In this document: positions 17,378-47,168 of the stretch, in pieces
How the letters are laid out: each line of letters opens with the position of its first letter
Numbering within the stretch: the first letter of the stretch is position 1
Source: a virus
DNA length: 64,000 bases
IMG/VR virus record: IMGVR_UViG_3300025849_000022
Location: 1-64,000 of that record
Direction: 5' to 3' (one strand)
Translations under genes and position numbers: made by a program
Notes under the pieces: model-generated
What the model was told of the DNA's origin: nothing
Seen by the model: only the letters and a program-made list of their open reading frames with translations
Database searches by the model: none

Positions 17378-17862
17378 CTCCACCACTCCTCATACGGAAA
17401 CACTATCCAACGTTCTTGATCTGGTAATACATTATTAGCAGTAAATTCAACGTTATTAAAACTACTAGATTCTTTATCAAACAATGTAGAAAACATAATA
17501 TCTTGATGTGCATGTTGCATCATGTTGCTATTATCTGCTACATAGTTTCTGATAACATTGTCAATACCTTGTAGTGTTGTTCCTGTATCATTAATATCAT
17601 CTACGACTAAAACACGTTTATCATTGTATTTAGATAAAATGTGTCTTAATGTCTCTGAATCTTCGATTGCTCCGTCTCTTGTTTGCCATCTGAATGCTTC
17701 GAATGGCACTTCAAAGTAATGACTCATCATTACTCCAAACGGATATGCTCCTCTACCGGGACCAATAATAACTTCAGGCTTGTAACTTTCGTGTGCCATT
17801 TCTCGCACAATAATTCTACAATCTCTGTTTAAATCGTCCCAACTATAATATAGTTTTTCCAT
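17374..17862 (-). CDS. Purine-type phosphoribosyltransferase (162 aa)
   Basis: Type I phosphoribosyltransferase fold with the PRPP motif VLVVDDINDTGTTLQ (about 84-98) and the early PEVIIGPGRGAYPFG segment that binds pyrophosphate. The C-terminal RWIVFPYEEW recalls xanthine/guanine phosphoribosyltransferases. Probably salvages a purine base to its nucleotide; a link to deazaguanine salvage is possible because folE and queE follow. The start codon lies exactly 6 bases after the TATAAT of a consensus promoter, and no Shine-Dalgarno is present, so the mRNA is predicted leaderless. Confidence 0.85.
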   Translation of the reverse strand: MEKLYYSWDDLNRDCRIIVREMAHESYKPEVIIGPGRGAYPFGVMMSHYFEVPFEAFRWQTRDGAIEDSETLRHILSKYNDKRVLVVDDINDTGTTLQGIDNVIRNYVADNSNMMQHAHQDIMFSTLFDKESSSFNNVEFTANNVLPDQERWIVFPYEEWWR

Positions 17863-17868
17863 GCTTTT

Positions 17869-17897
17869 ATTATACCACTTTTTCTGGTTGAAGTCAA
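17869..17897 (-). promoter_or_regulatory. Sigma70 promoter, predicted leaderless start, -35 palindrome
   Basis: Reading minus: TTGACT, 17 bp, TATAAT, then 6 bases to the ATG at 17862. The -35 sits in a perfect inverted repeat GGTTGA-CT-TCAACC (17886-17899), a candidate operator. Confidence 0.85.
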
Positions 17898-17898
17898 C

Positions 17899-18471
17899 CT
17901 ATCTTTCAAAATCATTTTCTAATAGGATAAATTCTACTTTATCAAAATCATTTAAGTTAATTTTAGCGGCTTCTTCAACTATGTTTCTCTTAGTAAACTC
18001 TAAAAACAATTTAAGTTCTTTATAGAAACCAGCATCTAATACAGGATTTAACACATCGCTATCTCCTGATATATTATATGTTTCGTCAAGTAACTTATTG
18101 CTTAGTTTTAAAACAACACCAAATGTCATTTTAAGACCGTCTGCCAGCATATCATCAAAGTCAGTTAGTTTCTTATATTTAAAAATATATCTGTTTAACA
18201 TTCTTAAGTAAAATTCTGCAGATATCTCGTCAAGTTGCACTGATATTTTATCAGTATCAAATTCAACTGCTTTGAACACAGATAAATGACTTTGGTCAAA
18301 ATCTACGTTATTGCAAAAGAAATGTATAACATCTATTATTTCCTTGTCGGTTATAGGAAATTTCTTTTTAATTAAATTTAACTCATCGCCTTTACCGATC
18401 GCACCCACAACTGCCATAACTGGGGTGCCTGTTCTATTAATAACATTTACAGATTTACGTTTTCCTATCAT
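17899..18471 (-). CDS. Hypothetical protein (190 aa)
   Basis: A soluble, mainly helical 190-residue protein (MIGKRKSVNVINRTGTPVMA). It is joined to galE upstream by ATGA overlap and its TAG stop abuts the next promoter. Repeated Asp/Phe/Leu patterns (FDDMLADGLKMTFGVVLKLSNKLL) suggest a helical bundle. No family recognised. Confidence 0.65.
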   Translation of the reverse strand: MIGKRKSVNVINRTGTPVMAVVGAIGKGDELNLIKKKFPITDKEIIDVIHFFCNNVDFDQSHLSVFKAVEFDTDKISVQLDEISAEFYLRMLNRYIFKYKKLTDFDDMLADGLKMTFGVVLKLSNKLLDETYNISGDSDVLNPVLDAGFYKELKLFLEFTKRNIVEEAAKINLNDFDKVEFILLENDFER

Positions 18472-19463
18472 TTATTCTTAATAACCTTATTTTTATTGTC
18501 TACCCAAAACTTAGAATGTGCAAACATATCATCTAATGAATATGTTGGTTCCCAATCTAATAATGTTTTGGCTTTAGAAATATCTCCACATAAGTACGAT
18601 GGGTCTCCTGCTCTTCTAGGACCTACTTCATATTTTAAACTTTTTCCAACAACGTTTTGTGCTGAAATTATTAAATCATGAATACTAAATCCTGTACCAG
18701 AGCCTAAGTTTACAATACCACTTTCACCGTCATTGCTTAAATGCTCTACTGCTTTTAGTTTAGCATTTGCTATGTCTTGTATATGACAGTAATCTCTAAT
18801 GCAAGTACCGTCTTTAGTATCGTAATCATCGCCACAAATATTAAATACCTCGTCATTTGTAATTTTATCAATAATGATAGGCATTACATGAGTTGCTGGT
18901 TCTTGTGTATAACCATTTTTACCTTCTGGGTCTGCACCAGCGGCATTAAAATATCTTGTACTGATATAATTTAACCCGTATGCTTTGCTGTAATCTTCTA
19001 ACATAAGTTCTGTCATGTACTTACTCATTGCATACGGACTCATTGGCATTGGTGTAAGAGTCTCAGCAAATGGTTCTCTGCTTTCTCTTTCACCATACAC
19101 ACTACTAGAACCGCTAAAGATAAAGTTCTTAACTCCTGCTTTAACACACATATCTAGTAATGTTTGAGTGCCTGACACATTATTTTTATAATACTTGCCA
19201 GGATCAATTATACTATCAGGAACAACATGGCTTGCCGCTAAATGAATAACCGCTTGTGGTTTCATCATTTCTAATATGCCTGCCGTAGTTGTAGCCTGAA
19301 ATTCATGTGGAAATAAAGTAGCACCTTCTGGTAATGCCCACTTCCTACTCGTATTGGAATCTATAACAATTACGTCATATCCATTGTTAGCAAAAGTTTT
19401 ACTTACCTGTGCACCAATAAAACCAAGACCACCTGTAATAACAACTGTTGGTTTTTCACTCAT
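18468..19463 (-). CDS. galE: UDP-glucose 4-epimerase-like SDR (331 aa)
   Basis: Extended short-chain dehydrogenase with the NAD motif TGGLGFIGAQ (11-20), a SGSSSVYG segment and the catalytic YAMSK. RYFNAAGADPEG and the CIRDYCHIQDIANA segment are characteristic of GalE. Interconverts UDP-glucose and UDP-galactose, providing sugar donors. The glycosyltransferase-like gene at 22564 and the UDP-sugar dehydrogenase-like gene at 52079 may use the same pool. Full length. Confidence 0.88.
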   Translation of the reverse strand: MSEKPTVVITGGLGFIGAQVSKTFANNGYDVIVIDSNTSRKWALPEGATLFPHEFQATTTAGILEMMKPQAVIHLAASHVVPDSIIDPGKYYKNNVSGTQTLLDMCVKAGVKNFIFSGSSSVYGERESREPFAETLTPMPMSPYAMSKYMTELMLEDYSKAYGLNYISTRYFNAAGADPEGKNGYTQEPATHVMPIIIDKITNDEVFNICGDDYDTKDGTCIRDYCHIQDIANAKLKAVEHLSNDGESGIVNLGSGTGFSIHDLIISAQNVVGKSLKYEVGPRRAGDPSYLCGDISKAKTLLDWEPTYSLDDMFAHSKFWVDNKNKVIKNK

Positions 19464-19620
19464 CTTTATTTTCCTCCTTTGGATCTAGTAATCCTCCCCA
19501 ATCTTCTACCTCATCAACAACATCTGTTAAAGATCCTGCTGGTTTGGAGTTAGTAGGTTGAATTACTGTTTCCTTGTTTCCTCTCTTTTCAGTGAAAGGA
19601 ATACGTTTAATGTTAGGCAT
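19456..19620 (-). CDS. Small acidic hypothetical protein (54 aa)
   Basis: Start at MPNIKRIPFTEKRG (19620), with a GTG alternative upstream. Basic start, acidic end (WGGLLDPKEENKDE). Overlaps both neighbours by 8 bases. Unknown function. Confidence 0.58.
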   Translation of the reverse strand: MPNIKRIPFTEKRGNKETVIQPTNSKPAGSLTDVVDEVEDWGGLLDPKEENKDE

Positions 19621-19795
19621 TATTTTTTGCGTCTTGAATCTCACCTCTTCTAACTTTCGCTAGTTTAGTAATTTCCATTAATGCCTTCCTTGCTCTTGTT
19701 GCCGATGCTTTTACGCCTTGGCCTTCTTTAAATTTTTCGTTTTCACTTACATACTCTTCAAAGAGTGCTTTGATTTTTAAATGTGTCTCTGTCAT
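19613..19795 (-). CDS. Histone H1-like Hc1-type protein (60 aa)
   Basis: Helical, Lys/Arg-rich. The pattern KIKALFEEYVSENEKFKEGQGVKASATRARKALMEI followed by KLAKVRRGEIQDAKN matches the short Hc1-like histone family (xRxRKxLxEIxKLAxxxRxEIQxAK). Such proteins bind DNA non-specifically and compact nucleoids. In a phage it could coat or compact DNA, or interfere with host chromatin. GGAG lies upstream of the ATG. Confidence 0.6.
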   Translation of the reverse strand: MTETHLKIKALFEEYVSENEKFKEGQGVKASATRARKALMEITKLAKVRRGEIQDAKNNA

Positions 19796-19804
19796 AATTA
19801 TCTC

Positions 19805-20395
19805 CTATATGTTTTTAAATTGTACAGATTTAATTAAATCGTAATCGGCTCTATATGCCTGCCTAACTACTGATTCATTAACGTTATTAACAATATCTAT
19901 TGATTGCATCAAACGTTTTGTTGCGTCAATGTTGAAACCATATTCATCATTGATTTGATTATAAATATTTTTGTTATAATAAAAATAATCTATGATAGGA
20001 TTGGCATTATATTTTTTTATAATGTCAAACATATCGATTAAAAAACTTTTTTGTGGCTTAAAATGAGCATCATTAGATTCTAAATAAAATCCTTCATCAC
20101 TAAAATTAAAAGTAACATAGTTTGTTTGAGGCTCTACCTCTCTCCAACCTAAGTACATATTAACAGTACTGATAAATCTTTCTATTGGATCTCTTAAAAT
20201 CACTATAAACCTACTTGGGCATTTTTTTTCTTCCCATAATGTAATTCTAGACCAATCATTGTTTGTTTTCTCATGATCTCTAATTATACTTGTAGCACAC
20301 TTAGGTACTAACAAGAATGCAATGTCCTCTTTTGCGTTGTATACACAGTCGCCTGGCATACAGTTTGTATATTTGTTATCAACTGATGTTTCCAT
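19805..20395 (-). CDS. Small sulfotransferase-like protein (196 aa), paralog A
   Basis: Contains a PAPS-loop-like LVPKCATSIIRDH near residues 29-41 and a 3'-phosphate motif FIVILRDPIERFISTVNMYL near 63-82. It is clearly related to the neighbour at 20379 (same RDPxERFIS-VNMYL block, same AHF...F motif). Both are shorter than typical sulfotransferases, so acceptor-binding parts may be reduced. It starts inside the end of paralog B. Acceptor unknown. Confidence 0.65.
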   Translation of the reverse strand: METSVDNKYTNCMPGDCVYNAKEDIAFLLVPKCATSIIRDHEKTNNDWSRITLWEEKKCPSRFIVILRDPIERFISTVNMYLGWREVEPQTNYVTFNFSDEGFYLESNDAHFKPQKSFLIDMFDIIKKYNANPIIDYFYYNKNIYNQINDEYGFNIDATKRLMQSIDIVNNVNESVVRQAYRADYDLIKSVQFKNI

Positions 20396-20960
20396 TATCT
20401 ACCTTATTGATGAACTTTACAGAATCAATTAAATCATAATCTTCTTTATAAACATCTTTAACAATGTTAATATCAACACCGGTTACTATTTTACCGAATT
20501 GATTCACGTGACTAGGTTCCATATTTAAATTATAATGACTATTTAAATCACCAATTATATCTTTGTTTAGCCAAAAGAAATCAATTTTATTATAATCTAA
20601 TCCTTCTAAAAAAGTATTCTGCGAAAAAAAATGTGCATTGTTGCTTTTAAATATACTATGCTTGTTATCTTCTTTTCTAATATCTACATAATTAGAATAA
20701 CTTGAAAAATTTCTATTATGCAAATACATATTTACAGCACTTATAAATCGTTCTACTGGATCTCTTAGTATCACACAAAATTTATCTATGTTAAAATCCT
20801 TTAGGATTACTTCAGTTTTATTAGTTATTGGTTTTAATGCACGTCTTATTGACGATGAAGCATTCTTTGGTAAATGTAAAATACCAAGACTTCTATTTTC
20901 TATATAAGCACCGCTGTATAGCGGATGTACAGAACCATTAATACCAATTACACTATTCAT
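20379..20960 (-). CDS. Small sulfotransferase-like protein (193 aa), paralog B
   Basis: Has LHLPKNASSSIRRAL as a PAPS-type loop near 28-42 and FCVILRDPVERFISAVNMYL. Tandem duplicate of the gene at 19805. Its start overlaps the stop of the QueD-like gene upstream, so it is expressed with 7-deazaguanine synthesis. AT-rich and Asn-rich compared with neighbours, suggesting rapid divergence. Enzymatic activity unproven. Confidence 0.65.
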   Translation of the reverse strand: MNSVIGINGSVHPLYSGAYIENRSLGILHLPKNASSSIRRALKPITNKTEVILKDFNIDKFCVILRDPVERFISAVNMYLHNRNFSSYSNYVDIRKEDNKHSIFKSNNAHFFSQNTFLEGLDYNKIDFFWLNKDIIGDLNSHYNLNMEPSHVNQFGKIVTGVDINIVKDVYKEDYDLIDSVKFINKVDNGNIS

Positions 20961-21394
20961 TTCAACAAATTATCAAATACATCGTCTATTGCGTCTGTAT
21001 CTCCAAAGTATGGACCATCCATATCTTCAACTGGATACTCCATTTCGCAACCGTTTTCGTTATCTTCGGCTACTGAAATCTTTATGTAACGACCTGGATA
21101 TTCATCATTGATCGCTTCAAACAAATCATCTGCTATCATCTCGCAGGACTTGTTATTAAGTTGGATTATATCTTCTTTGTATAAGTTCTCCAACCATCTT
21201 TTAAACTGTATAAACTCTATATCTCTATCGTCATGAAACACTTCAATCCACACTTTAAAGTGGAAGATGTGTCTGTGAGGATAGCCTAAAAAACTAACAT
21301 CATACTCATCGCCTGTTGCTAGATTAGGATCTTCTAATGCCGCAGGATACTTATGTATACCTTCTTTACTAAATGTTACCCAAATACTTCTCAT
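20957..21394 (-). CDS. QueD-like (6-carboxytetrahydropterin synthase family) protein
   Basis: Divergent member of the QueD/PTPS fold. HxH-type ligands occur in GYPHRHIFHFKVWIEVFH (His40, His42, His45), a central DIEFIQFKRWLE matches the vMDFxxLK strand-helix, NKSCEMIADDLFEAI matches the PTxExxA helix, and ISVAEDNENG matches the final strand with its Glu. No Cys is present where the QueD catalytic Cys usually lies. In the pathway QueD turns dihydroneopterin triphosphate into carboxytetrahydropterin for QueE. Location between queE/folE and dpdA supports the call. Confidence 0.55.
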   Translation of the reverse strand: MRSIWVTFSKEGIHKYPAALEDPNLATGDEYDVSFLGYPHRHIFHFKVWIEVFHDDRDIEFIQFKRWLENLYKEDIIQLNNKSCEMIADDLFEAINDEYPGRYIKISVAEDNENGCEMEYPVEDMDGPYFGDTDAIDDVFDNLLK

Positions 21395-21411
21395 ATTATC
21401 CTCACTCTCAC

Positions 21412-21609
21412 TTATCTGATGTTACTTGCTTGTGGTCCTTTCGCACCTTGCTCAACATCAAATGTTACTTCTTGGTTCTCTGATAGAGATTTATATCCCT
21501 CACCTTGTATTGCTGTATGATGTGCAAACACATCTTTACTGCCGTCGTCTGGTGTGATAAATCCAAAACCTTTGCTGGTATCAAACCATTTTACTTTTCC
21601 TGTCGCCAT
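21412..21609 (-). CDS. Cold-shock protein (CspA family)
   Basis: 65-residue single cold-shock domain with RNP-1 KGFGFI (14-19) and RNP-2 VFAHH (27-31). Binds single-stranded RNA/DNA and melts RNA structure. GAGGAAG precedes the ATG. Typical length of 65-70 aa. It may act as an RNA chaperone for phage transcripts. About 100 bases upstream hold only a possible 31-codon GTG ORF, not claimed. Confidence 0.93.
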
Positions 21610-21711
21610 TCTTTCTTCCTCGTTATGAAGTATTACCTTCGTTGTTTAATTCTAAAGGTACTTCCTTCAAAACTACATGTCCAATTGGACTATGTTCTTT
21701 AATTACTATTA

Positions 21712-22374
21712 TTACCACTTAACACCTATTGTAACACTTAATACATTATTGTTAACCGGGTCTTCAGTGTATGTATTACTAAATCCCAGCGACACTTTAT
21801 CATTTAAACTGTAATTGATTGCTGTTTCATTACGCAAATATGTATCTGTTCCAGTTTCATTAAGTAGTTTGTTGGTAATATTTAAACTGTCATTTAGTTT
21901 ATAAAATATCCATAAACTATTTCTAAGTATTGCTTCGTCCACTTCATCAGTAGTTAAGTATGCAACTGACGTTTCGTGACTTATTTTCCAATTGTCATTT
22001 CTAAAAACTTTTATACCAAGGCCACCACCAGTTACTATTCTATCTCCAGATGCTCTTAATTTATCACTGTCATAACTTGTTACACTGAATGCATAATACT
22101 TAGATGTGATGTCTTTATTTGCTTTACCAATTATGCTAAACTTATCCATTTTAACTACATCTTCTTGTTCTTTGTAAACATAGTCAGTTTCAACTACATA
22201 GTCAATAATAGGATTATCCCACTCGTGATCTACACTGAATTTTAATGTAGTTGTATCACTATTAATCTGTGTCCAACCAAACTTGGCATTGCCTGTTGCA
22301 TTTGCTGGTAACGTTATCAGCAATAATCCTATTGCTAAAATAAAAAATAATACAGCCTTTTTAATGTTACTCAT
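21712..22374 (-). CDS. DUF481-type outer-membrane beta-barrel protein (220 aa)
   Basis: Signal peptide of a classic form (MSNIKKAVLFFILAIGLLLITLPANA) is followed by alternating beta-strands of a small barrel. Segments such as TYLRNETAINYSLNDKVSLGF and a final SVTIGVKW with terminal aromatic residue fit the DUF481/YdiY family and outer-membrane insertion. It would be placed in the host outer membrane, possibly as a superinfection block or envelope modifier. Implies a Gram-negative host. Coupled by ATGA to the small membrane protein upstream. Confidence 0.7.
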   Translation of the reverse strand: MSNIKKAVLFFILAIGLLLITLPANATGNAKFGWTQINSDTTTLKFSVDHEWDNPIIDYVVETDYVYKEQEDVVKMDKFSIIGKANKDITSKYYAFSVTSYDSDKLRASGDRIVTGGGLGIKVFRNDNWKISHETSVAYLTTDEVDEAILRNSLWIFYKLNDSLNITNKLLNETGTDTYLRNETAINYSLNDKVSLGFSNTYTEDPVNNNVLSVTIGVKW

Positions 22375-22571
22375 TGTGAATCCTTTCTTAATACTTCTTG
22401 TCTAGTAGTACCCATTTCTTTTAATTTTTCATCTATATCAAAGTCATAATATTCACCAGTATACTTTCTTAGAATACTTCTTTCACTTAACATAACACTA
22501 CTAATCCAACAGCCATATGCCATGAAGCAAAGAAATACTATACCAAATGCTATCTGGATAATCTCAATCAT
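22371..22571 (-). CDS. Small single-span membrane protein (66 aa)
   Basis: Residues 4-29 (IIQIAFGIVFLCFMAYGCWISSVML) form one membrane helix, followed by a charged cytoplasmic-looking tail. Joined to the glycosyltransferase-like gene upstream and to the DUF481 gene downstream by overlaps. Function unknown; an envelope role fits the neighbourhood. Confidence 0.6.
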   Translation of the reverse strand: MIEIIQIAFGIVFLCFMAYGCWISSVMLSERSILRKYTGEYYDFDIDEKLKEMGTTRQEVLRKDSQ

Positions 22572-23787: not shown

Positions 23788-23807
23788 ATAGATTCTCCAT
23801 AATGTTA

Positions 23808-23836
23808 ATTATATCATATTTTATGGCCAATGTCAA
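23808..23836 (-). promoter_or_regulatory. Early sigma70-type promoter (glycosyltransferase operon)
   Basis: Reading minus: AGGTTGACA, 17 bp, TATAAT, then a ~20-base leader with TGGAG before the ATG at 23787. It starts after the TGA of the 175-aa gene. Confidence 0.85.
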
Positions 23837-23838
23837 CC

Positions 23839-24366
23839 TCAATCTATCACCTCGTCTTTGGTATATTTGGTCCAGTCTGTGAAAGTCTTCCTGTCTTGTA
23901 GTTCATGTAAACTATGACACCACACACCTGGATTAGTTGCTTTAAAGTCTTTGTCATCTAGTTTGAGTGTCGCATTGTAATTGAATTGATTAATGTAAGG
24001 CAACTTAACACTTATCATTGGTATAAATGTACTATACTCAGTCCAACCACATTCTAATACTTGTTCTGCTAAAGTTACGTCAAAGTCTAGTGTAATCCAA
24101 ATATCATCTTTTAAAAGACTTGTAACTAGTTCGTCCCAACCCTGCCAATCTTTTTCAGTTGGTGGATTAAAACTTTGGTTAGCACCTATATAAATGTGCG
24201 GACAACCGCTATTAAGTGCCCTAGCAAGTATTTCCTCTTTTGGTTGATACCCAACTACAAACAAAGTCTTTTGACCATAAGCAGGCGTATGCTCTACTTC
24301 AGTGCCTATAAAAAACTTTGTATCCTCGTGACCTTCTCTATTCATTAGTAACTCGTATAACCCCAC
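23839..24366 (-). CDS. Hypothetical protein linked to dpdA (175 aa)
   Basis: Soluble alpha/beta protein: MGLYELLMNREGHEDTKFFIG, a strand-like TLFVVGYQPKEEIL, HIYIGANQSFNP, and WITLDFDVT. The repeated strand-loop-helix pattern suggests a compact Rossmann-like or TIM-half domain. It is last in the operon after dpdA and the 64-aa ORF, so a role in handling deazaguanine or its modified DNA is possible, though unproven. No family recognised. Confidence 0.62.
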   Translation of the reverse strand: MGLYELLMNREGHEDTKFFIGTEVEHTPAYGQKTLFVVGYQPKEEILARALNSGCPHIYIGANQSFNPPTEKDWQGWDELVTSLLKDDIWITLDFDVTLAEQVLECGWTEYSTFIPMISVKLPYINQFNYNATLKLDDKDFKATNPGVWCHSLHELQDRKTFTDWTKYTKDEVID

Positions 24367-26070: not shown

Positions 26071-26072
26071 GT

Positions 26073-26816: not shown

Positions 26817-26846
26817 ATGTTGTCACCTCTTACATTAAAGTTATTA

Positions 26847-26903: not shown

Positions 26904-26906
26904 AAG

Positions 26907-29612
26907 TTAATCATTAAAATTAAATAAACTATGGAATGTATTGCTGGTATCTGTTGCTGACAAATCCCATTTAAGTACATTCAATAAGTTTTCTACTTTC
27001 TTATCAACAACTGCTTCTTCCATTGAATCTTCATCAAAGGGTAGTTGTTTAAACCATTCTGGTATATGCATTTCATCTGTTGGATATGCAATACTAGTAT
27101 ATCCCATGGCATTACTTTTAAGCCTGCATACAATAACTTTCATACCATCTGTTATTTGCATACTGTATTGATCGCTATTTGCTTTTAGCATATTATTCCA
27201 ATTAATACTTGCTCTAACATGCCCGGGGATCATTATTTTCTTTTCGTCTTTGAGTTTTTCTAACTTGTATAAACTAGCACTTTTGTTCATACTAAATGCT
27301 TTATTATATGCTTCTGTGTAGTATGTTAAGTTGTTTACACGTTTTGGCATACCTTTACGCCAAGGGTCCATTGCTTTAAACTCTTTCTTAAACTCTCTAA
27401 CATTTGCTAAAACCTTTGTTTCACCATCGCCATTTAGTGTTTGCCCTAATATGTCTGATAAAAAGTCTTGCACAAACTCTGGAGTATCTGACCTCTTAAG
27501 GTCTAACCCCATTACTTTGAGTTTACCACCTTCGGGTTGATACCCTTCTAAATCTAATACATTAATAGCATATCTTTTCTTTGTAATAAAGATGCCGGCT
27601 CTACCAACTACTTCTCTGCCGGCTTTAAGTATATTACCTTGGCTAGTTGAAATGTTAAATGAATTTTTTGCAAATAAAGGGAAAGAATCACTAACGGTAT
27701 CTGATATAGTATCATATAATTTAATTGCACTATCCATGTCTAATTCAATGTCTTGCTTTTTACTAATCTCATGAGCACTAAAATACACTGAGTCAGTATC
27801 ACCATATACTATTGTATCTCCAGTATGATCATACTCGCCTGTGAGCATTTTGTTTGTCTCTGCTCCCATGTGTCTAGTGATTGCACGACCAGTAAGTGTA
27901 GTACTTTGACCTATCCTGTGGTCAAAGAACCTACTACCTGGATTACAAATAGCACCATATGTACTGTTAAGTAGAATCTTTCTGACTAACTGTCGCTTAT
28001 CCCAAAATGCTATGTCTTCTGGCGTTGTTGCTTTTTTCTTTTTAGCCTGTAACTCTTGTCTTTCTGCATACCATCTCTCCAATAGTCCTGGTATAATACC
28101 TTGTACATCTGTTCTGTATATAGTACCATTTGCACTAATGCACCAAGGCTCATCACTGTTAAACAGCATGTTATATACATCAGCACCTTTGACACTAACT
28201 TCTCTTTTATCTTCTAAATCTAATATAAGTGGCTTATCAATATCTTTAGCCATTACCATTTCATATTCATTTGTACCGAACTTACCTGCCCAGGCATCTG
28301 CAAATGACTTCTTCTCAATTTGCATTTTTTCTGTAATTTCTTTGTCTGTGTACTCTTGTCTTAGTTGCCCAACAATAGTTTCAGGAGCCATATTCAATGC
28401 TCTAATAACACTTGGATACAGACTGTTTATATCCATTGATCCTACCCATTCATGCATACCTTTCTTAGGAAATGCCACATAGGCACCTGCAACTGTATTC
28501 CCCCATGGATTCTCAGAATCTTTGTTTCGCTTTCTATCTGGTATAACCATACCGCGTCTGTGTGCTTCATTGATAATAGCAGAGTCAATTGTTTGTACCG
28601 CTCCCATTGTTACTGGAAGTAATACTGTATTCTGATGAGCAATCTCACTAGCAAGACTAATAAATTGTAACTTGTCGTCTAACTTTTTAAGTAGCATTGT
28701 GTCTTGAATATTGTATTCTAAAAACAATTCAAAGTCATGATTGTAAAGTCTATCAAGCGAACCATCATATACAACCTTCTTTTCACCTACTTCCATTTCG
28801 CCAATGTAGTCTAGTCTATAACTATGGCGTTCTTCGTAGTTGTATTTTCTATACAGTTGCATATAGTCTAAATGCACACGACCTACTAGATCATATGTTT
28901 GTGTTTCTCTACCGTGATTGATGTATTCTCTTTTAACAATATTCTTATCAAGTAAACACAGACGCCTTGTTTCGCTTTTACCTAGTACTTTGATAATTCT
29001 GTTTACGGTATAAGGAATATCATAACCTTCACTGTTCCAACCACTTAGTATATCAGCATCATCAATGAGGCTAAGGAAAGCATCTAACATTGCTTTCTCG
29101 CCACCAAATAGTATTGTATCGCCTACATTATCTGCAATCTTTTGTGCTTGTTCCCAATTAAGTGTTTTAGGTGGAACTGCTAAACATACTATTTTATCCA
29201 TCCAGTCTAAGTAAACACTGATACTAGTGATAGGCATAAATGCATCTTCAGGAGAACTATAACCTCTTTCAGGGTCAAAGTCTACCTCAATATCAAAAAA
29301 GCATTTGTGTAAGTCTGGTGCATCAACACCCAAGTAATGATCTGCTAATACTCTATTAACAGGCTTTAGGTCGCTTTCGTATGTTTGTTTGTTTTGATAT
29401 AGTGCTACATTGCGTTTAAAGTCTTTCCAGTTGTTTGCTGTAATCTTGCTAACTGGGTCACCGAATACACTATGCTGTTTGCCTTTTGGATCATCTACAT
29501 AAAAGTAGTACCGCATAGGGTGATCAATGATCTTACGTTCGCCTTCTTTTGTTCGCTCGACTACTCTTACTATGCCTTTGTTCTGTTCAAAAACTGCGTC
29601 AACGTAACTCAT
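26907..29612 (-). CDS. Family B replicative DNA polymerase (T4 gp43-like)
   Basis: Full-length 901-residue polymerase (T4: 898). Exonuclease motifs: FDIEVD (Asp107, Glu109), GWNSEGYDIPY (Asp198) and YNIQDTMLL (Asp304). Polymerase motifs: A, MDINSLYPS (Asp394); B, KILLNSTYGA; C, YGDTDSVYF (Asp605, Asp607). The C-terminal HSLFNFND resembles the clamp-binding tail of RB69 gp43. Copies the phage genome with gp44 and gp45 homologs encoded here. Starts within the end of the 86-aa gene and shares its promoter. Confidence 0.97.
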   Translation of the reverse strand: MSYVDAVFEQNKGIVRVVERTKEGERKIIDHPMRYYFYVDDPKGKQHSVFGDPVSKITANNWKDFKRNVALYQNKQTYESDLKPVNRVLADHYLGVDAPDLHKCFFDIEVDFDPERGYSSPEDAFMPITSISVYLDWMDKIVCLAVPPKTLNWEQAQKIADNVGDTILFGGEKAMLDAFLSLIDDADILSGWNSEGYDIPYTVNRIIKVLGKSETRRLCLLDKNIVKREYINHGRETQTYDLVGRVHLDYMQLYRKYNYEERHSYRLDYIGEMEVGEKKVVYDGSLDRLYNHDFELFLEYNIQDTMLLKKLDDKLQFISLASEIAHQNTVLLPVTMGAVQTIDSAIINEAHRRGMVIPDRKRNKDSENPWGNTVAGAYVAFPKKGMHEWVGSMDINSLYPSVIRALNMAPETIVGQLRQEYTDKEITEKMQIEKKSFADAWAGKFGTNEYEMVMAKDIDKPLILDLEDKREVSVKGADVYNMLFNSDEPWCISANGTIYRTDVQGIIPGLLERWYAERQELQAKKKKATTPEDIAFWDKRQLVRKILLNSTYGAICNPGSRFFDHRIGQSTTLTGRAITRHMGAETNKMLTGEYDHTGDTIVYGDTDSVYFSAHEISKKQDIELDMDSAIKLYDTISDTVSDSFPLFAKNSFNISTSQGNILKAGREVVGRAGIFITKKRYAINVLDLEGYQPEGGKLKVMGLDLKRSDTPEFVQDFLSDILGQTLNGDGETKVLANVREFKKEFKAMDPWRKGMPKRVNNLTYYTEAYNKAFSMNKSASLYKLEKLKDEKKIMIPGHVRASINWNNMLKANSDQYSMQITDGMKVIVCRLKSNAMGYTSIAYPTDEMHIPEWFKQLPFDEDSMEEAVVDKKVENLLNVLKWDLSATDTSNTFHSLFNFND

Positions 29613-29859: not shown

Positions 29860-29865
29860 ATTAGT

Positions 29866-29893
29866 AGTATAACAGATAGAACTATATTGTCAA
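29866..29893 (-). promoter_or_regulatory. Sigma70 promoter of the polymerase operon, predicted leaderless
   Basis: Reading minus: AGGTTGACA, 16 bp, TATACT, then 6 bases to the ATG at 29859. Confidence 0.75.
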
Positions 29894-30222: not shown

Positions 30223-30251
30223 ATTATACTAGAAATAAGTAATGTGGTCAA
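30223..30251 (-). promoter_or_regulatory. Early sigma70-type promoter for the DsbA-like gene
   Basis: Reading minus: TTGACC, 17 bp ending TTTCTAG, TATAAT, then a ~35-base leader with CAGGA before the ATG at 30186. Confidence 0.8.
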
Positions 30252-34203: not shown

Positions 34204-34232
34204 ATTATAGCAAATTATAGGGTCGAGGTCAA
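34204..34232 (-). promoter_or_regulatory. Early sigma70-type promoter (34163 operon)
   Basis: Reading minus: AGGTTGACC, 17 bp, TATAAT. The TGA in the -35 is also the stop codon of the HAD gene (34229-34231). Leader has GGTAGGAGG. Confidence 0.85.
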
Positions 34233-34825
34233 CCTTTTTGCACAATTAAATTGTATATTTCTTCCCAATTTTTGCACACATTTGCAGGACCATCGTAGTG
34301 CATATTGTGTCCATGCTCAACTAAGATACCTTTTAGACCGGCATCAATACCCCAATCTACGTTCTGTGGTTTGTCTTCTATCCAGTATGCTCCTGGATAT
34401 TTTTTACCAAACTCTAACAATATTTCGTCTTTGTCTGCGCCTGTGTCTAAACAAATAACTTCTTTAAAACAGTCATCACCAAACAGTTTATTTAAGTTCT
34501 TAGTTCTAAGTTCTTGTGCGTAAGGGTCTAAACTCAAACTTGTAATTGCTACAAATTGATATTGATGTTGCTCGTGTAACTTCTTAACAAAGTATTGAGC
34601 ATCACGAAGTGGAGGAAGGAATCCTATTGCCGCACTTTCATTAAAGTTTTTAATTACTTGATCACCAGTAGAGTCGTTTCTTAGATCAAACTTTTCTCTA
34701 ATGCTGTAATGTAACCTGTGATTTTCTACTGGAAAGTGTCCTCTGTGTTCCATCCAATTATGGAATGCAAACTCCCAGTCCAATACTACGCCATCGCAAT
34801 CTGTTAATATAATTTTATTTTTCAT
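34229..34825 (-). CDS. HAD-superfamily hydrolase (198 aa)
   Basis: Start at MKNKIILTDCDG (34825). HAD motif I is LTDCDGVVLDWE, motif II AITSLSLDP, and motif III/IV WIEDKPQNVDWG. Small phage HAD phosphatases of this type are frequent in marine T4-like genomes and probably act on nucleotides or sugar phosphates. The ATG is exactly 6 bases from TATAAT with no Shine-Dalgarno, predicting a leaderless message. Confidence 0.85.
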   Translation of the reverse strand: MKNKIILTDCDGVVLDWEFAFHNWMEHRGHFPVENHRLHYSIREKFDLRNDSTGDQVIKNFNESAAIGFLPPLRDAQYFVKKLHEQHQYQFVAITSLSLDPYAQELRTKNLNKLFGDDCFKEVICLDTGADKDEILLEFGKKYPGAYWIEDKPQNVDWGIDAGLKGILVEHGHNMHYDGPANVCKNWEEIYNLIVQKG

Positions 34826-34831
34826 ACATGT

Positions 34832-34860
34832 ATTATACATTCTTTTATCCTCTGTGTCAA
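34832..34860 (-). promoter_or_regulatory. Sigma70 promoter, predicted leaderless (HAD gene)
   Basis: Reading minus: TTGACA, 17 bp, TATAAT, 6 bases, ATG at 34825. Fully consensus hexamers. Confidence 0.85.
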
Positions 34861-34866
34861 GTCAAA

Positions 34867-34892
34867 AGAAAAGCGACCGAAGTCGCTTTTCT
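34867..34892 (-). terminator. Rho-independent terminator with UUCG tetraloop
   Basis: Reading minus: 11-bp perfect stem AGAAAAGCGAC / GTCGCTTTTCT closed by TTCG, followed by TTTGAC. Ends the fibre gene 34930, seven bases before the HAD promoter. Confidence 0.88.
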
Positions 34893-34929
34893 AAGTTGTT
34901 TTTGATTAGCCTAAACTATTCAAATGATA

Positions 34930-36808: not shown

Positions 36809-36848
36809 TTTCTGCCAGAATAAGTGGCAAAAATCGTATTAGAATAGA

Positions 36849-38861: not shown

Positions 38862-38865
38862 AGTA

Positions 38866-41800: not shown

Positions 41801-42666
41801 CTGTTTGCAAATATATTTAAATATTTGTAATTGCTGTTTCCAATGTCATATGACATTGTGGTATCTGGCATACTAGTAGCATTTTTAGGTATATAATTTG
41901 CTAAGTTGGCAGTTAGTTGACTAGCAGTTAAACCACCAGTTTGTAATGTTGTCCAACTAACACCACCTGAACCATTTGTTACAAGTACTTGTCCATTTGT
42001 ACCATCTGATGTTGGTAATGTAAATGCATTAGCAAATGTTGTACTTCTGTTTGAATTTATTTTTAATGCTGGTGTTGTGCTACTTGCACTACCTACATAA
42101 AATACAGTACTGTTTGCACTTCTAACTTCTATATGTCCATCTGTGCTTTTTGTTGCTAATATTAAACTATGTTGTGAACTAAGTTCTACATCTGCGGCAT
42201 CGTTTGAACTAATAACAAATCTTGTTTTAGAATCAAATCCTGCACTTTGACTGTGTGTAGGATAGTTTGCGTTATTTAATATACCTGCGTATGCTGTGAT
42301 ATTAGCATTATCACCAAAGTTTCTACCTGAGAAGATATTTGTATTGCCATTCACATTGTGAATGCTTAATGGTGTTGGTATTGTATATGCTGTTGAGGAA
42401 ACAGTAATAACGTTTGCAGATTCAGTTACAGTAGTTGCACCTGAGCCTTGTATCTTTTTAAAGTTTAATTGTGAACCGTCTTTTGCTGAGAATAAGCCTA
42501 TTCCAGAAGCACCTACATTGCTACCACCTGTAACGGCGGCGTTTGCATCTGCAGAAACACTATCTTGTGCTACAAAAATTCCTTGCGTAGAATCGTAAAC
42601 TAGGATCTGATTATCGGTGATCCCGTCTATATTAAAAGTTAAATTATCTCCTGTTACATTTGGCAT
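38866..42666 (-). CDS. Collagen-like long tail-fibre protein (1266 aa)
   Basis: Beta-repeat N-terminal ~600 residues ([19 protein letters not shown]-type repeats) are followed by two Gly-X-Y collagen blocks rich in GPQG, GPTG, KGE and TGATG units, about residues 625-775 and 850-1090. A beta cap with [13 protein letters not shown] and an end domain ([18 protein letters not shown]) follow. Collagen blocks make trimeric rods in phage fibres. A 75-residue non-collagen segment near 775-850 separates the two rods. Heads the late fibre operon. Confidence 0.85.
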
Positions 42667-42697
42667 AGTATTCCTATTCTAATTTGCAATTATAATG

Positions 42698-42705
42698 TAT
42701 TTATC
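42698..42705 (-). promoter_or_regulatory. Late-type promoter element (GATAAATA)
   Basis: Reading minus GATAAATA, 31 bases before the ATG of the collagen-like fibre gene, which has AGGA upstream. Confidence 0.65.
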
Positions 42706-42717
42706 AACAAAGTTGAT

Positions 42718-43077
42718 TTAATTGCTTAATAAAATTTGTGAGATACTACCGTATGATAAGTCATATGTACTGCCATCGCCAACTCCTGCTCTATCAAGAA
42801 CGGCTCTTAGGTATACATAATTACCTTTAAATGTGTGAATTTCTGTGCCTGTAGTTGCAGATGATTTTTCAATTAGTTTTATATCACCCCAATCGGCTGA
42901 TTCAGGTGTTAATGATAGTGTGCCTTGTAGTTTAATCTTGCCTACAAAAGCATTTAACTTCACACTAACGGAGTGAATTCCGTCCGTATAACCGAAATAA
43001 CTATCTGCTTTGATTTTGTTGCCGGTTAACCCCATATTATTATCGGAGTTTCCTAGCATTTCTAATGTTCTTCTCAT
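42718..43077 (-). CDS. Putative virion protein (119 aa)
   Basis: Start at MRRTLEMLGNSD (43077); a TTG 12 bases upstream is an alternative. Small beta-rich protein (HSVSVKLNAFVGKIKLQGTLSL, NYVYLRAVLDRAGVG) without membrane or enzyme motifs. Own late element 16 bases upstream. Likely a minor tail or fibre component because of the flanking fibre genes. Confidence 0.62.
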   Translation of the reverse strand: MRRTLEMLGNSDNNMGLTGNKIKADSYFGYTDGIHSVSVKLNAFVGKIKLQGTLSLTPESADWGDIKLIEKSSATTGTEIHTFKGNYVYLRAVLDRAGVGDGSTYDLSYGSISQILLSN

Positions 43078-43092
43078 AAGTAGCCTCAATTG

Positions 43093-43100
43093 TATTTATC
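43093..43100 (-). promoter_or_regulatory. Late-type promoter element (GATAAATA)
   Basis: Reading minus GATAAATA followed by 15 bases to the ATG at 43077 and TGAGG before it. Confidence 0.6.
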
Positions 43101-43126
43101 TCAATAAGGCTGTTATGAGAATGTTG

Positions 43127-43600
43127 CTAAACTTGTTCTAATCTTTCCATTAAACGTTCAGCACGGTTAGTAACTTGTTTATGCCATCTTGAATCTCTAC
43201 CTTCTACTGCGGCAGTTTTCCAATCTTCTTTAATGATTGCGGCATGCATCTTTTTAAACTTGCTTAACCTAGTTCTACCCATATTAAACATCATATTAAC
43301 CAAGATTTGCTGGACTTCGTCTGGTAAGTCTCCAAATACCCCTGCTTCGTATAGCAACTCACACTCAGATATTGCTGTGTCGAGGTCTCTTTCAAAACAT
43401 TCTTTAACACGTTCTTCTGATACTGGTGTGCCAACCTCCGCTCCATGCTCTGGATCGGTGTCGAGGACCAAATGGCCCACTCCGAAAGTCGGGTATCCCA
43501 GGTGGTCGAGGTAAACTTCATTGACTACTCCTTCATCTATTTTGAGTTGCTCAAATACAGCATCTCTATCTAACTTTGTGTCTCTTCCAAATAATCCCAT
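43127..43600 (-). CDS. T4-type lysozyme / endolysin (GH24, 157 aa)
   Basis: Peptidoglycan muramidase. The catalytic triad is Glu23 (KIDEG), Asp32 (YLDHLG) and Thr38 (YPTFGVGH), with the same 9- and 6-residue spacing as E11, D20, T26 of T4 lysozyme. NRAERLMERLEQV at the end matches the family. There is no signal peptide, so release would depend on a holin, or the domain could act in the virion. TAATG coupling to the 182-aa gene upstream. Confidence 0.92.
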   Translation of the reverse strand: MGLFGRDTKLDRDAVFEQLKIDEGVVNEVYLDHLGYPTFGVGHLVLDTDPEHGAEVGTPVSEERVKECFERDLDTAISECELLYEAGVFGDLPDEVQQILVNMMFNMGRTRLSKFKKMHAAIIKEDWKTAAVEGRDSRWHKQVTNRAERLMERLEQV

Positions 43601-44148
43601 TATAATTCCTCTAGTGTAACTACTTTATAAATTTCGTTTTTACCAAGTGATAATTGTAACTTGGCAACATCTTTTTTATTATCTAAGTATATTGTGCTCT
43701 TCCACCTATCGGGTGTAGTATTTATTTTTGCATTCATACTTAAACTATTTACTTTGTCAATCCAACTACTACCTGGATTATACTTATATGTAACGTACCT
43801 ATATTTATTAAAAAACAGTCTATGTCGTAGTATTTTGTCAGTTGATTGTATAACTGCTAATTCTTTATGTGAGCGTATACCTTCTATCTTAATAATACTA
43901 TCTTTAAATTGTTTTATAAATTTTTTAGCAACTTTGCTGTCTGAGAAATATATAGTAAAGTCCTTATGCCATGCAAACTTCATTGTGTCCCAGCAGTACA
44001 TATTTTGAAAATTATAGATATCGTTTAATACCATAGCATCGTGTATTAACCAATTGCCTTTAACTGATATTTTGATATGGTATTTGTTCCACCATACCTT
44101 TAAAGATGGTTGTATAACCAATCCTGCTACTGTATTTCCTAAATTCAT
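43600..44148 (-). CDS. Hypothetical protein (182 aa)
   Basis: Basic protein rich in Trp, Tyr and Lys (VWWNKYHIKISVKGNWLIHD) with repeated beta-strands and no membrane span. ATGA overlap with clpA upstream and TAATG with lysozyme downstream. No family recognised. Confidence 0.65.
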   Translation of the reverse strand: MNLGNTVAGLVIQPSLKVWWNKYHIKISVKGNWLIHDAMVLNDIYNFQNMYCWDTMKFAWHKDFTIYFSDSKVAKKFIKQFKDSIIKIEGIRSHKELAVIQSTDKILRHRLFFNKYRYVTYKYNPGSSWIDKVNSLSMNAKINTTPDRWKSTIYLDNKKDVAKLQLSLGKNEIYKVVTLEEL

Positions 44149-46322
44149 TTAACTGTAAATTCAAACTGCTCAATATAATCTACAAGTACAACGCCTTCTT
44201 CTATTTTATCAAACAGTATTTTTTTACTGATAGGTTTTTTAACTACATCTTCAAACAGTCTTTTCAACGGCCTTGCTCCCATGCTAGGTTCAAATCCATT
44301 GTCTGCAATATACTTCTTAGCCGCTTTGGTTAGTTCTATACTAATTTTGCTGTCATTACTTAGTAGTAATTCATTTGTTTCTTTAACAATTTTGTCAATG
44401 ATAAGATTAACTTCTTTCATGCCAAGTTTATTAAACTTAACATAAGAGTCTATTCTATTTCTAAACTCTGGTGTGAAGAAACTTTTAACTGCTTTGATAT
44501 CTGTATCAGTGTGTGTTGTTTCGCCAAAACCAATTTTACTTGTTTCTGACTTTGCGGCACCTAAGTTACTTGTCATTATAAGTGTAACATTACTAAAGTC
44601 TACAGTTTTACCTGTAGCACCTGTAAGCCTGCCATCATCCATTACTTGTAACAATACTTGTAATACTTCTGGTGCGGCTTTCTCTACTTCGTCTAGTAGC
44701 AATACACAATTAGGATTCTTATCTATTTCAGATAGCAACATGCCTTGTCCTAGTTCTCCTTCTGCGTGTCCAACGTAACCTGGAGGAGCACCAATAAGTT
44801 TGCTGACACTATGTCTTTCCATATACTCTGACATGTCAAACTTAACTAGTTTAATATCTAATTCGTCTGCTAATGCTCTTGCTGTTTCTGTTTTACCTAC
44901 ACCTGTTGGTCCTACAAATAGGAATGTACCAATTGGTTTATTAGGCTCTCTAAGTCCTGCTTTACTAACAAGAATACTTTCTACAAGTTTATCTACTGCT
45001 TCGTCTTGACCAAACACTTTCTTTTTAATCTTTCTATCTAATTTACTAAAGCCTTTTGTGTCTTTAACGTCAACTACATCTTTTTTAATCTTAGCAATCT
45101 TTGATACCTGTGTTACTACTGAATCAAGATTTACAACTTTTTTTCCTAGTACTTTAGAAACTGCACCTGCGGCATCCACAATGTCTAATGCCTTGTCAGG
45201 AAAGTATTTGTTTTTAATATATCTATCTGCCAGTTCACATGCTTTTTCTATAGCACCTTTTTCATACTTGACTTTGTGAAATTCTTCGTAGTATGGTTGT
45301 AGGCCTTCGCATATCTTAATTGTATCTTTAAGTGTGGTTTCTTCTATATCAAGTCTAGCAAATCTACGCATCAATGCTCTGTCTTTTTCAAATGTACTTG
45401 CAAATTCATCTGGTGTAGTTGCACCAATACACAATAGTTTACCTTTACCTAACAATGGCTTTAACATGTTTGCCGCATCTACTTGACTGCTACCAGCACT
45501 ACCGGCTCCCATGATCATATGTATTTCATCAATAAACAAAATAGCCTTGTCATCTTTTTCAATTTGATCTAATACCGTTTTAAGACGCTCTTCAAAGTCT
45601 CCTCTAAATTTTGTACCTGCTAACATTGTACCAACGTCTATTTGATACACAATTTTATCTTCTAATGTTTTAGGAACTTGCTTGTTAATAATCTTCCATG
45701 CCATGCCTTCTGCAATAGCAGTTTTACCTACACCAGGCTCGCCAACTAAACATACGTTATTCTTTTTACGCCTTGCAAGTATTTCGACAACATCATTTAC
45801 TTCTTCGCTTCTACCAATAAGTGGATCTATGCTACCATTCATTGCTTCTTCGTTTAAGTTTTTAATGTAATCTGCTGACTCTTCTACTAATTCGCCTTCG
45901 TGTACGTCGCCTAATACATCTAATAAGTTTTCTCTATGGCATCCGTTTACTGCTAGAAAGTATGCACTATGCGAGTTATCTTCATTGGTGATACTTACTA
46001 GTAAATCTATAGCAGATATTTTGTCTCTGCCATTAAAAATACTTTGTGCAAATGCTCTTTGAAATACTCTTTCAACTGCTACTGTTTTTTTAGGTTTGCC
46101 TGTGTTGCCTCCTTCTGACTTTAAATTATTAAATTCGTCGTCATTTAAATATGTAACAATATCTGCTTCTAGTTGCTTAATATCAACATTGCATTCACCT
46201 AGCACTTTTTTGATTTCTCTATCGTTAATAAGTGCTAATGCAACATGTTCAAGAGTCATATACTCATGACTAAATTGATTAGATATTTCGTAAGCCTTTT
46301 CTATAATTCCTTCAACATTCAT
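44145..46322 (-). CDS. clpA: ClpA-type AAA+ unfoldase (725 aa)
   Basis: Double-ring Clp ATPase. It has an N-domain (EYMTLEHVALALI), NBD1 with GEPGVGKT and FIDEIH, and NBD2 with GPTGVGKTE and LLDEVEKA. It lacks the long ClpB middle coiled coil and carries an IGFGE loop near 600, equal to the ClpP-docking IGL/IGF tripeptide. So it should feed a protease, and clpP is encoded at 61486. Length is close to E. coli ClpA (758 aa). Likely degrades host or scaffold proteins. CAGGAG before the ATG. Confidence 0.92.
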   Translation of the reverse strand: MNVEGIIEKAYEISNQFSHEYMTLEHVALALINDREIKKVLGECNVDIKQLEADIVTYLNDDEFNNLKSEGGNTGKPKKTVAVERVFQRAFAQSIFNGRDKISAIDLLVSITNEDNSHSAYFLAVNGCHRENLLDVLGDVHEGELVEESADYIKNLNEEAMNGSIDPLIGRSEEVNDVVEILARRKKNNVCLVGEPGVGKTAIAEGMAWKIINKQVPKTLEDKIVYQIDVGTMLAGTKFRGDFEERLKTVLDQIEKDDKAILFIDEIHMIMGAGSAGSSQVDAANMLKPLLGKGKLLCIGATTPDEFASTFEKDRALMRRFARLDIEETTLKDTIKICEGLQPYYEEFHKVKYEKGAIEKACELADRYIKNKYFPDKALDIVDAAGAVSKVLGKKVVNLDSVVTQVSKIAKIKKDVVDVKDTKGFSKLDRKIKKKVFGQDEAVDKLVESILVSKAGLREPNKPIGTFLFVGPTGVGKTETARALADELDIKLVKFDMSEYMERHSVSKLIGAPPGYVGHAEGELGQGMLLSEIDKNPNCVLLLDEVEKAAPEVLQVLLQVMDDGRLTGATGKTVDFSNVTLIMTSNLGAAKSETSKIGFGETTHTDTDIKAVKSFFTPEFRNRIDSYVKFNKLGMKEVNLIIDKIVKETNELLLSNDSKISIELTKAAKKYIADNGFEPSMGARPLKRLFEDVVKKPISKKILFDKIEEGVVLVDYIEQFEFTVK

Positions 46323-46330
46323 AATAGTAT

Positions 46331-47134
46331 TTAATTGTTTCTCCTGCGTTCTTGTTTAATTCTTTGTATAAGATGAACATGCTCATGACTCAATGAATCA
46401 GGTGGCATAACTTCTACTTGTAATAAAAAGTTACCAACTATGCTACTGCGAGGATCTGTAAATCCTTCCCCTCTAAGTTTCAGTCTGCTATTTGGTTCAG
46501 TAAGTGGCGGTATATGAACTGCCAACATTCTTCCGCTAATGTGCCTAACATCTATAGTTGCACCAGTTAATGCATCAAGGTAATCTATTTGTATAATACC
46601 AATAAGATCATTTCCGTTTTTTGCAAATTCTGGATGTGGTCGATATCTTACTCTTATAAATAAATCACCTGGCGGCAGGTTCGGGTCTTGCTGTGGACCT
46701 TTGCCGTGTACAGTAAACCGTGTACCTTCTTGTACACCTTTTGGTATTTTTAAATCTAACATACCAGTGCCTACATTGATTCGTTGTGTGGAACCGTTAT
46801 ATACATCTTCTAATGATAATAGTATATCAGTTTGTGCATCAAAATTTTGCTCTCTGCGTTGTTGTCCTCTTTGTCCAAATATATCTCTAAATATGTCTCC
46901 AAAAGGACTGGCTCCGCCAAAGCCTTGTCCAAAACCTTCAAAAGGATTAGGATTATCATACTGATTACGTTTGTTTGGATCACTAAGTGTATCGTATGCT
47001 TCTTGTACTCTTTTGAATTCCTCTGGATTACCACCTTTGTCAGGATGATGCTTACTTGCTAATTTGCGATATGCTTTTTTGATAGTGGAGGCGTCAGCAT
47101 CGCGGCCTACCCCCAATGTTTGGTAGTGATCCAT
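46331..47134 (-). CDS. DnaJ/CbpA-type J-domain co-chaperone (267 aa)
   Basis: J domain at 1-60 with HPD (30-32), a Gly/Phe-rich stretch ([18 protein letters not shown]), no zinc-finger repeats, then two C-terminal substrate domains ([14 protein letters not shown]...[15 protein letters not shown]). This is the type II (CbpA/DjlA-like) arrangement, somewhat shorter than CbpA. It would stimulate host DnaK. It heads an operon with clpA; the start is exactly 6 bases from TATAAT and lacks a Shine-Dalgarno, predicting a leaderless mRNA. Confidence 0.92.
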
Positions 47135-47140
47135 TGTTTT

Positions 47141-47168
47141 ATTATACAGTATTTGACAGGAATGTCAA
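47141..47168 (-). promoter_or_regulatory. Sigma70 promoter, predicted leaderless, with -35 palindrome (dnaJ-clpA)
   Basis: Reading minus: TTGACA, 16 bp, TATAAT, 6 bases, ATG at 47134. The -35 is one arm of a perfect inverted repeat TTGACA-TTCC-TGTCAA (47153-47168). Confidence 0.85.

Follow-up and report, generated by a model that had tools for sequence, protein, structure and literature searches.

Sigma70-type promoters six bases ahead of the start codon predict a leaderless gene set conserved by family in a phage group

The lambda cI gene, expressed from PRM, gives a leaderless mRNA off a host sigma70 promoter, and the leaderless class of the Thermus phage phiYS40 was reportedly found by Sevostyanova and colleagues in 2007 to use -10-only promoters. 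For a transcript starting on the A of its AUG, six bases is the usual discriminator length. According to excerpts of the published work, middle and late mRNAs of phiYS40 are leaderless (PMC3594737, PMC4842269), lambda cI is named among leaderless cases (PMC9031893; reference list of PMC12340547), and the AR9 paper describes phage transcripts as often leaderless while giving AR9's own leaders as 26-491 nt (PMC5312081). From the same kind of source, 375 leaderless mRNAs are reported in Caulobacter, with translation about equal to that of leadered mRNAs (PMC4117421), 171 are cited for S. meliloti and 192 starts in B. japonicum fall exactly at the start codon (PMC4117421, PMC4842269). In Deinococcus-Thermus a -10 motif adjoins open reading frames, with a spacing requirement that was reporter-tested; this motif can serve as a promoter by itself, and roughly a third of D. 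radiodurans genes are regarded as leaderless (PMC12340547). In Lactococcus cremoris the mapped leaders fall below 5 nt or near 40 nt, and the interval of 4-14 nt is empty (PMC10986495). Here we describe four promoters in the first 64,000 bases (the window) of the 88,308-base virus record IMGVR_UViG_3300025849_000022, together with their counterparts in related phages. Each is a sigma70-type promoter with six bases between its -10 box and an ATG, and we consider it very likely that such promoters fire on the A of the AUG, giving leaderless mRNAs that would be read by 70S-type initiation.

Strong promoters in the window were defined by at least 11 of 12 hexamer matches. A preliminary description of this DNA had placed four of them, ahead of genes for a phosphoribosyltransferase (PRTase), the leader gene of the polymerase operon, a HAD-type protein and DnaJ, at a common geometry of TTGACA/T, 16-17 bp, TATAAT/TATACT, six bases and ATG. 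This geometry is confirmed at every site, with exactly six bases each time and all four on the minus strand (Table 1). The same description was correct in finding no Shine-Dalgarno (SD) motif ahead of any of the four starts, since six bases are too short to hold one, and in counting eleven other strong promoters, all farther from their ATG. The -10-to-ATG distance (hereafter the distance) is 20-40 in ten of these eleven, seven of the ten having GTAGGAG in the leader, while the promoter at 55624 has two candidate ATGs, at 11 and at 17 bases, the second of them preceded by AAGGA. In its own scan, each of the four sites ranks within the top four promoters by score, and they have the full TTGACA-16/17/18-TATAAT form of a sigma70 promoter, outside the -10-only type of phiYS40. 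Scans of the window gave no overall excess of promoter-like sites over shuffles (90 versus 84.0, standard deviation 8.8; 71 versus 68.9, standard deviation 8.6), and the signal is one of strong promoters coupled to start codons, not of promoter-site excess. At the decoy rate described below, 4 of 19 gene-linked window promoters at distance 6 corresponds to p = 2e-5; because the distance of 6 was picked after seeing the window data, a survey of relatives is the better test of chance.

Relatives were drawn from IMG/VR using DnaJ, the DNA polymerase, the PRTase, the HAD protein and the leader gene. The survey covered 21 related phage contigs (2.78 Mb, taken from 35 matching records), with G005, G018, G024 and G033 represented by 20,000 of 53,714, 360,000 of 364,247, 60,000 of 62,176 and 120,000 of 123,362 bases, respectively. 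Sites with at least 5 of 6 matches per hexamer and a 16-18 bp spacer were kept as pairs when an open frame had its ATG no more than 60 bases on, which held for 400 of 1,644 promoter-like sites. Over these 400 pairs the distance is sharply bimodal, with 60 pairs at 6 flanked by 7 at 5, 10 at 7 and 3 at 8, then a trough of only 8 pairs across 9-15 and, beyond it, a wide leadered mode spanning roughly 24-40. The leaderless share, taken as distances 5-8, is about one fifth (80 pairs), and every one of the 21 contigs has at least one such case. Twelve permuted-hexamer decoys placed 7 of 783 links at distance 6 and formed no peak (Fisher p = 2e-22). The peak persists when one member per protein family is counted (mean 22.6 of 186 at 6); 31 families have a case at 6, and 39 of the 186 have at least one member at 5-8. 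When an exact -10 box was sought ahead of the first ATG in each of 2,828 long frames, with no -35 required, 60 boxes lay at 6, compared with 3-12 for the distances 3-5 and 7-10; a -35 of at least 4/6 accompanies 53 of these 60 boxes.

As controls, stretches of nine named phages gave 5 of 86 links at distances 5-8 (p = 9e-4), three of them in Kyanoviridae phage C48C1 and one each in P-SSM2 and PA5oct, with none in RaK2 (0/48) or Atu_ph07 (0/7). This control set is small and mixed in its hosts, and the comparison is conservative because the P-SSM2, S-PM2, BUCT-ZZ01 and PA5oct stretches were picked around pattern matches. An exact-pattern scan of 16 whole named records (4.16 Mb) found the exact six-base distance six times, once each in P-SSM2, S-PM2, C48C1, BUCT-ZZ01, PA5oct and CBB, and gene starts were checked for some of these matches. 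The leaderless arrangement is enriched in this phage group, apparently one of large and mostly marine phages, and is not exclusive to it. Translation signals differ between the two promoter classes as well: an SD motif precedes 12 of 80 starts at distances 5-8 versus 216 of 281 at 20 or more, and the mean anti-SD duplex is -1.5 versus -5.7 kcal/mol.

The distance is kept while the surrounding sequence drifts. For gene-by-gene counts, near-identical upstreams were removed and loci without a strong promoter were placed outside the fractions. For DnaJ, 56 loci reduced to 31, of which 26 have a strong promoter, 25 at distances 5-8 (16 at 6) and one at 23; for the PRTase, 79 of 80 loci were used (L163 left out) and reduced to 39, and strong promoters occur at 21 of these, with a distance of 6 in 19 cases, 5 in one and 38 in one. 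The leader gene has 4 of 4 dereplicated strong promoters at 6-7. The HAD family (33 of 36 loci used, with L185, L190 and L208 left out) is mixed, 4 of 12 dereplicated strong promoters being leaderless and the other 8 lying at 25-43; 4 of its 16 dereplicated loci have no strong promoter. DNA ligase, taken as a control, is leadered throughout, all 8 of its dereplicated strong promoters lying at 23-35; a strong promoter is missing from 25 of its 33 dereplicated loci. The ligase counts use 74 of 80 loci (L405, L417, L418, L439, L448 and L450 left out). Most left-out loci lack a start, and none is usable outside L417, L418, L439 and L448; L418 has a full promoter at 31, L439 and L448, whose exclusion by hand was unnecessary, show a weak match at 45 only, and L417 has none within 34 bases. 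Alignment with relatives, which the preliminary description had proposed, shows flanks that are only about 30-40% identical around the retained six-base distance. In the leaderless sets the hexamers have a mean pairwise identity of 0.88-0.93, and the -35 TTGAC is conserved, whereas the 30 bases upstream stand at 0.31 for DnaJ and 0.40 for the PRTase; upstream, spacer and discriminator together span 0.31-0.33 and 0.40-0.45, respectively. Upstream sequences of relatives are alike in geometry and unlike in their spacers.

The state also follows gene family. Among clusters of the proteins encoded behind the 400 promoters, leaderless members account for 15 of 15 DnaJ, 9 of 9 of a small protein resembling DNA polymerase III alpha, 7 of 8 PRTase, 4 of 4 of an ABC ATPase, 3 of 3 leader-gene and 3 of 4 SufE cases, the fourth SufE lying at distance 1, while other large clusters are leadered throughout (for example 13/13, 11/11 and 10/10). 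Within-family concordance of state reaches 0.946, where permutation gives a mean of 0.641 and a maximum of 0.751 (0 of 10,000 permutations), and is 0.936 after four contigs are dropped. Families with both leadered and leaderless members are the HAD family, a phrog_107 exonuclease and a family beginning MKQGD. In this last family the distance is 7 in G022, 11 or 17 in the window (55596-55624) and 17-29 elsewhere (as at L310:19650-19889), and it may be a natural case of switching between the two modes. The leaderless ABC ATPase, ABC_tran by Pfam (PF00005, L294:5041-5739), looks like SufC; it and the SufE domain protein (PF02657, L242:11576-11923) occur in several contigs, and possibly represent iron-sulphur cluster assembly genes carried by phages.

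We propose that a host-type sigma70 promoter, with its -10 box at -12 to -7, would let RNA polymerase start on the A of the AUG. The resulting message would have neither 5' leader nor SD motif, and its 5'-terminal AUG would presumably be bound by a 70S ribosome or by IF2/fMet-tRNA, a route reviewed, in the part cited, in PMC9031893. Two parallel modes would then coexist in these phages: a majority of transcripts with leaders of about 18-34 nt, mostly carrying an SD motif, and a leaderless minority, the mode being inherited or selected per gene family. The predicted leaderless families are DnaJ, the PRTase, the DNA-polymerase-III-alpha-like small protein, the SufC-like ABC ATPase and SufE. The preliminary description had argued for selection on leaderless translation. 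Selection on the distance is upheld, as it is kept while flanks, spacer and discriminator drift; the argument does not extend evenly to all four genes, the HAD family being leaderless in only 4 of 12 cases.

For DnaJ, HAD and PRTase, later start codons are unlikely because the domain profiles align from residues 1-3: the Pfam DnaJ alignment runs from residue 2 and that of NT5C from residue 3, both at profile position 1. A wrong start codon for these three genes was rejected on the domain boundaries, and the leader-gene start is based on conservation in relatives. The HAD frame reaches back to a second ATG at 34840, within the promoter, and an out-of-frame ATG lies at 34829, ahead of the start; with +1 at 34825, both would be untranscribed.

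Several observations weigh against this reading. Start sites in these phages are predicted from promoter geometry, and distances of 5, 7 or 8 occur in some relatives (8 for DnaJ of the L004 and L007 types), so that leaders of 1-2 nt would be allowed at 7-8. No strong promoter at all is present at 5 of 31 dereplicated DnaJ loci and 18 of 39 dereplicated PRTase loci. Because contigs were selected through relatives of the polymerase and of the four genes, the case counts for DnaJ and the PRTase are inflated; in the family-collapsed histogram every family contributes a single count. Start codons at distances 5-7 are ATG in 78 cases, GTG in 1 and TTG in 3, a preference not clearly stronger than in leadered genes (78:4 versus 238:33). 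In leadered promoters the seventh position after the -10, which a start at distance 6 would occupy, is most often A (54-55%); this is weak support because pyrimidine-purine steps there do not favour position 7 and are equally frequent at 5 and 9 (0.47, 0.48 and 0.47 at 5, 7 and 9). The first 45 nt are no less structured in leaderless than in leadered genes (-3.42 versus -3.24 kcal/mol), and we therefore rejected a special 5' unfolding of leaderless genes; a weakly structured start region is, for Caulobacter, a reported tendency and no strict requirement. Lastly, the window's own record has no bS21.

The host is probably an alphaproteobacterium, and its ribosomes may read leaderless mRNA well. 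The best-ranked named polymerases come from phages of Sinorhizobium and Agrobacterium. IF3 discriminates against leaderless mRNA, and bS21 is a 30S protein located near the anti-SD. The latter is encoded in 10 of 24 contigs, and a genome scan with a three-sequence bS21 alignment (G004 first) kept at least 80 matches, 78 of them titled with alphaproteobacterial names, the genera of which we take to belong to Alphaproteobacteria; 2 among the matches listed were titled only Proteobacteria/Pseudomonadota. The scan patterns came from phage proteins and carry that bias, so that the result serves as a host lead only, and a scan of genomes with the whole G004 protein found no relative. In the relatives L374 and L375, bS21 is clustered with ClpX-like, ClpS-like and Hsp20-like genes (named by eye from translations); together with DnaJ and a Clp ATPase elsewhere in relatives, they make an unusually complete set of proteostasis genes. 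In Agrobacterium phage Atu_ph07, one gene (L373:244-747) is annotated as translation initiation factor 3.

It is possible, though on balance doubtful, that the leaderless state reflects genome compaction, with leaders lost through short intergenic space in a tolerant host, saving about 25 bases per gene and serving no further function. Both promoter classes often begin within a few bases of the upstream stop (median 5.0 leaderless, 8.5 leadered), and the longer upper tail of upstream space at leadered promoters (75th percentile 103 versus 26.5 bases) favours compaction somewhat. The medians are nevertheless close, and therefore lack of space alone does not single out leaderless genes; leadered promoters are, moreover, several-fold more numerous, and the tracking of gene family across divergent contigs is unexpected under random loss. 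Compaction as the sole cause is not favoured. A translational switch, in which infection alters SD-led initiation and a leaderless regulon is then translated, or in which such a regulon evades regulators acting on leaders, appears unlikely. It would fit the restriction of the leaderless set to particular gene families, the bS21 genes of 10 contigs and the precedent of phiYS40, for which excerpts describe IF2 rising and IF3 falling while leaderless phage mRNAs are read (PMC3594737). Yet bS21 is missing from the window's own record, and the 24 contigs, possibly fragments, gave no match to IF3 (the translation genes searched were IF3 and bS21 only), which led us to reject a phage-encoded IF3 as the switch. 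Leaderless translation is also constitutive in Caulobacter according to the portion cited (PMC4117421), and no special device is needed if leaderless mRNAs are translated about as well as leadered ones there. Escape from control acting on leaders, the purpose suggested in the preliminary description, found no support in anything that we observed. A bolder variant, which we rate as improbable, would be a lineage-wide leaderless regulon, in which host-support genes (DnaJ, PRTase, SufC/SufE-like, polymerase-like small protein) stay leaderless over deep divergence because leaderless and SD-led messages are read by ribosomes that differ in composition or timing, as they might before and after phage bS21 joins the 30S subunit.

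Start sites of sigma70 promoters vary by a base or two, and the distances of 7 and 8 in 13 of 80 pairs at 5-8 could accordingly mean ultra-short leaders, with starts 1-3 bases upstream of the AUG; with the peak at 6 in 60 of the 80, we find this quite unlikely. Another reading holds that these genes are mainly translated from transcripts of upstream genes, which often end nearby on the same strand, the adjacent promoter being minor and its distance meaningless for translation. Such read-through is very unlikely given the rarity of SD motifs before leaderless genes, the terminator-like hairpin just ahead of the HAD promoter and the conserved promoter distance. Chance coincidence of AT-rich sequence, with which the lack of excess in bare consensus scans would agree, is ruled out by the permuted-hexamer decoys and by conservation, and its probability is close to nil.

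Starts on the A of the AUG, as predicted here, have several parallels. Like phiYS40, these phages place a promoter motif right ahead of the start, although phiYS40, a phage of a thermophile with -10-only promoters on middle and late genes, makes most of one temporal class leaderless, whereas the low-GC, apparently mostly marine phages described here have full -35/-10 promoters ahead of a minority of genes, whose membership is set by gene family. Caulobacter and other Alphaproteobacteria likewise start on the A of AUG, but those are cellular genes with mapped starts, and ours are viral and predicted from sequence. The position of the -10 box a few bases before the open reading frame recalls Deinococcus-Thermus, with the difference that the -35 is conserved here. 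In lambda cI a single repressor gene is concerned, unlike the conserved gene set of these phages, and the gap between leader classes resembles that in Lactococcus cremoris, where it was measured by end-sequencing of host genes. Descent of the arrangement from the closest named relatives was rejected, as the DnaJ genes of Atu_ph07 and Phosso directly follow another gene and have no such promoter in about 100 bases. Among the full-text matches listed, represented by titles and the starts of abstracts and including few subscription papers, none described a set of leaderless genes kept across marine or large mesophilic phages. Leaderless phage mRNAs are themselves known; the apparent novelty lies in a set of leaderless genes with -35/-10 promoters that a whole phage group has conserved. 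The family-wise state turns the question of why a gene should be leaderless into a comparative one, for which mixed families are available, and a -10 box six bases ahead of an ATG can help annotation by marking the start codon in these genomes.

Table 1. Promoters, genes and other features of the window (coordinates are window positions)
Feature	Position	Strand	Details
PRTase promoter, predicted leaderless, sigma70-type	17863..17897	-	TTGACT 17897-17892, 17 bp, TATAAT 17874-17869, aaaagc
Phosphoribosyltransferase, 162 amino acids	17374..17862	-	ATG 17862; PF00156 E=3e-13; phrog_8995 from residue 1
Leader-gene promoter of polymerase operon, predicted leaderless	29860..29893	-	TTGACA 29893-29888, 16 bp, TATACT 29871-29866, actaat, ATG 29859
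Leader gene, 86 amino acids	29599..29859	-	first before polymerase
Family B DNA polymerase	26907-29612		after leader gene; PF00136/phrog_262
HAD/NT5C-like gene promoter, predicted leaderless	34826..34860	-	TTGACA 34860-34855, 17 bp, TATAAT 34837-34832, acatgt
HAD-type 5' nucleotidase-like protein, 198 amino acids	34229..34825	-	ATG 34825; PF06941 at cut-off (24.8 bits); phrog_420 E=8e-43
Hairpin	34867..34892	-	11-bp stem, T-containing tail; 3' end 6 bases from -35 of HAD promoter
DnaJ promoter, predicted leaderless	47135..47168	-	TTGACA 47168-47163, 16 bp, TATAAT 47146-47141, aaaaca, ATG 47134
DnaJ co-chaperone, 267 amino acids	46331..47134	-	PF00226 and PF01556
ClpA/ClpB-type ATPase	44145-46322		after DnaJ; AAA_2 and ClpB_D2-small
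Eleven other strong promoters	63802, 55624, 34232, 30251, 23836, 10819, 10094, 8851, 6172, 2889, 1946
Patterned promoter class	1918-1946, 2861-2889, 6144-6172, 8823-8851, 10066-10094, 10791-10819, 34204-34232	-

The leader-gene protein had no match in Pfam or PHROG, and the hairpin ahead of the HAD promoter, which also scores on the plus strand, is possibly the terminator of the upstream unit. Some promoters carry further sequence features. An inverted repeat, TTGACA-ttcc-TGTCAA (47148-47173), overlaps the DnaJ -35 in the window and in the near relatives L001-L006, and is not evident in distant relatives. Many PRTase promoters (among L094-L159; window 17869-17897) have CCA-N7-(T/C)GG within the spacer; it may be an operator lying between the -35 and the -10. 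Inverted repeats of at least 5 bp in spacers, considered as a general operator, showed no clear excess (0.15 versus 0.12 shuffled), and CC-N6-9-GG occurs more often in leaderless promoters (10 of 80, 0.125) than in shuffled ones (0.023), with five of these ten promoters belonging to the PRTase. A weak fifth candidate, TTAACA-16-AATAAT followed by five bases and the ATG of a 284-amino-acid frame, lies at 49588-49621 on the plus strand. A second, patterned promoter class has TTGACC/T, often CCC in the spacer, mostly TTTAGTATAATA, then TAT-rich sequence and a GTAGGAG leader. Its members are alike beyond their two hexamers, which suggests an extra factor; the promoter at 30223-30251 is less alike to them.

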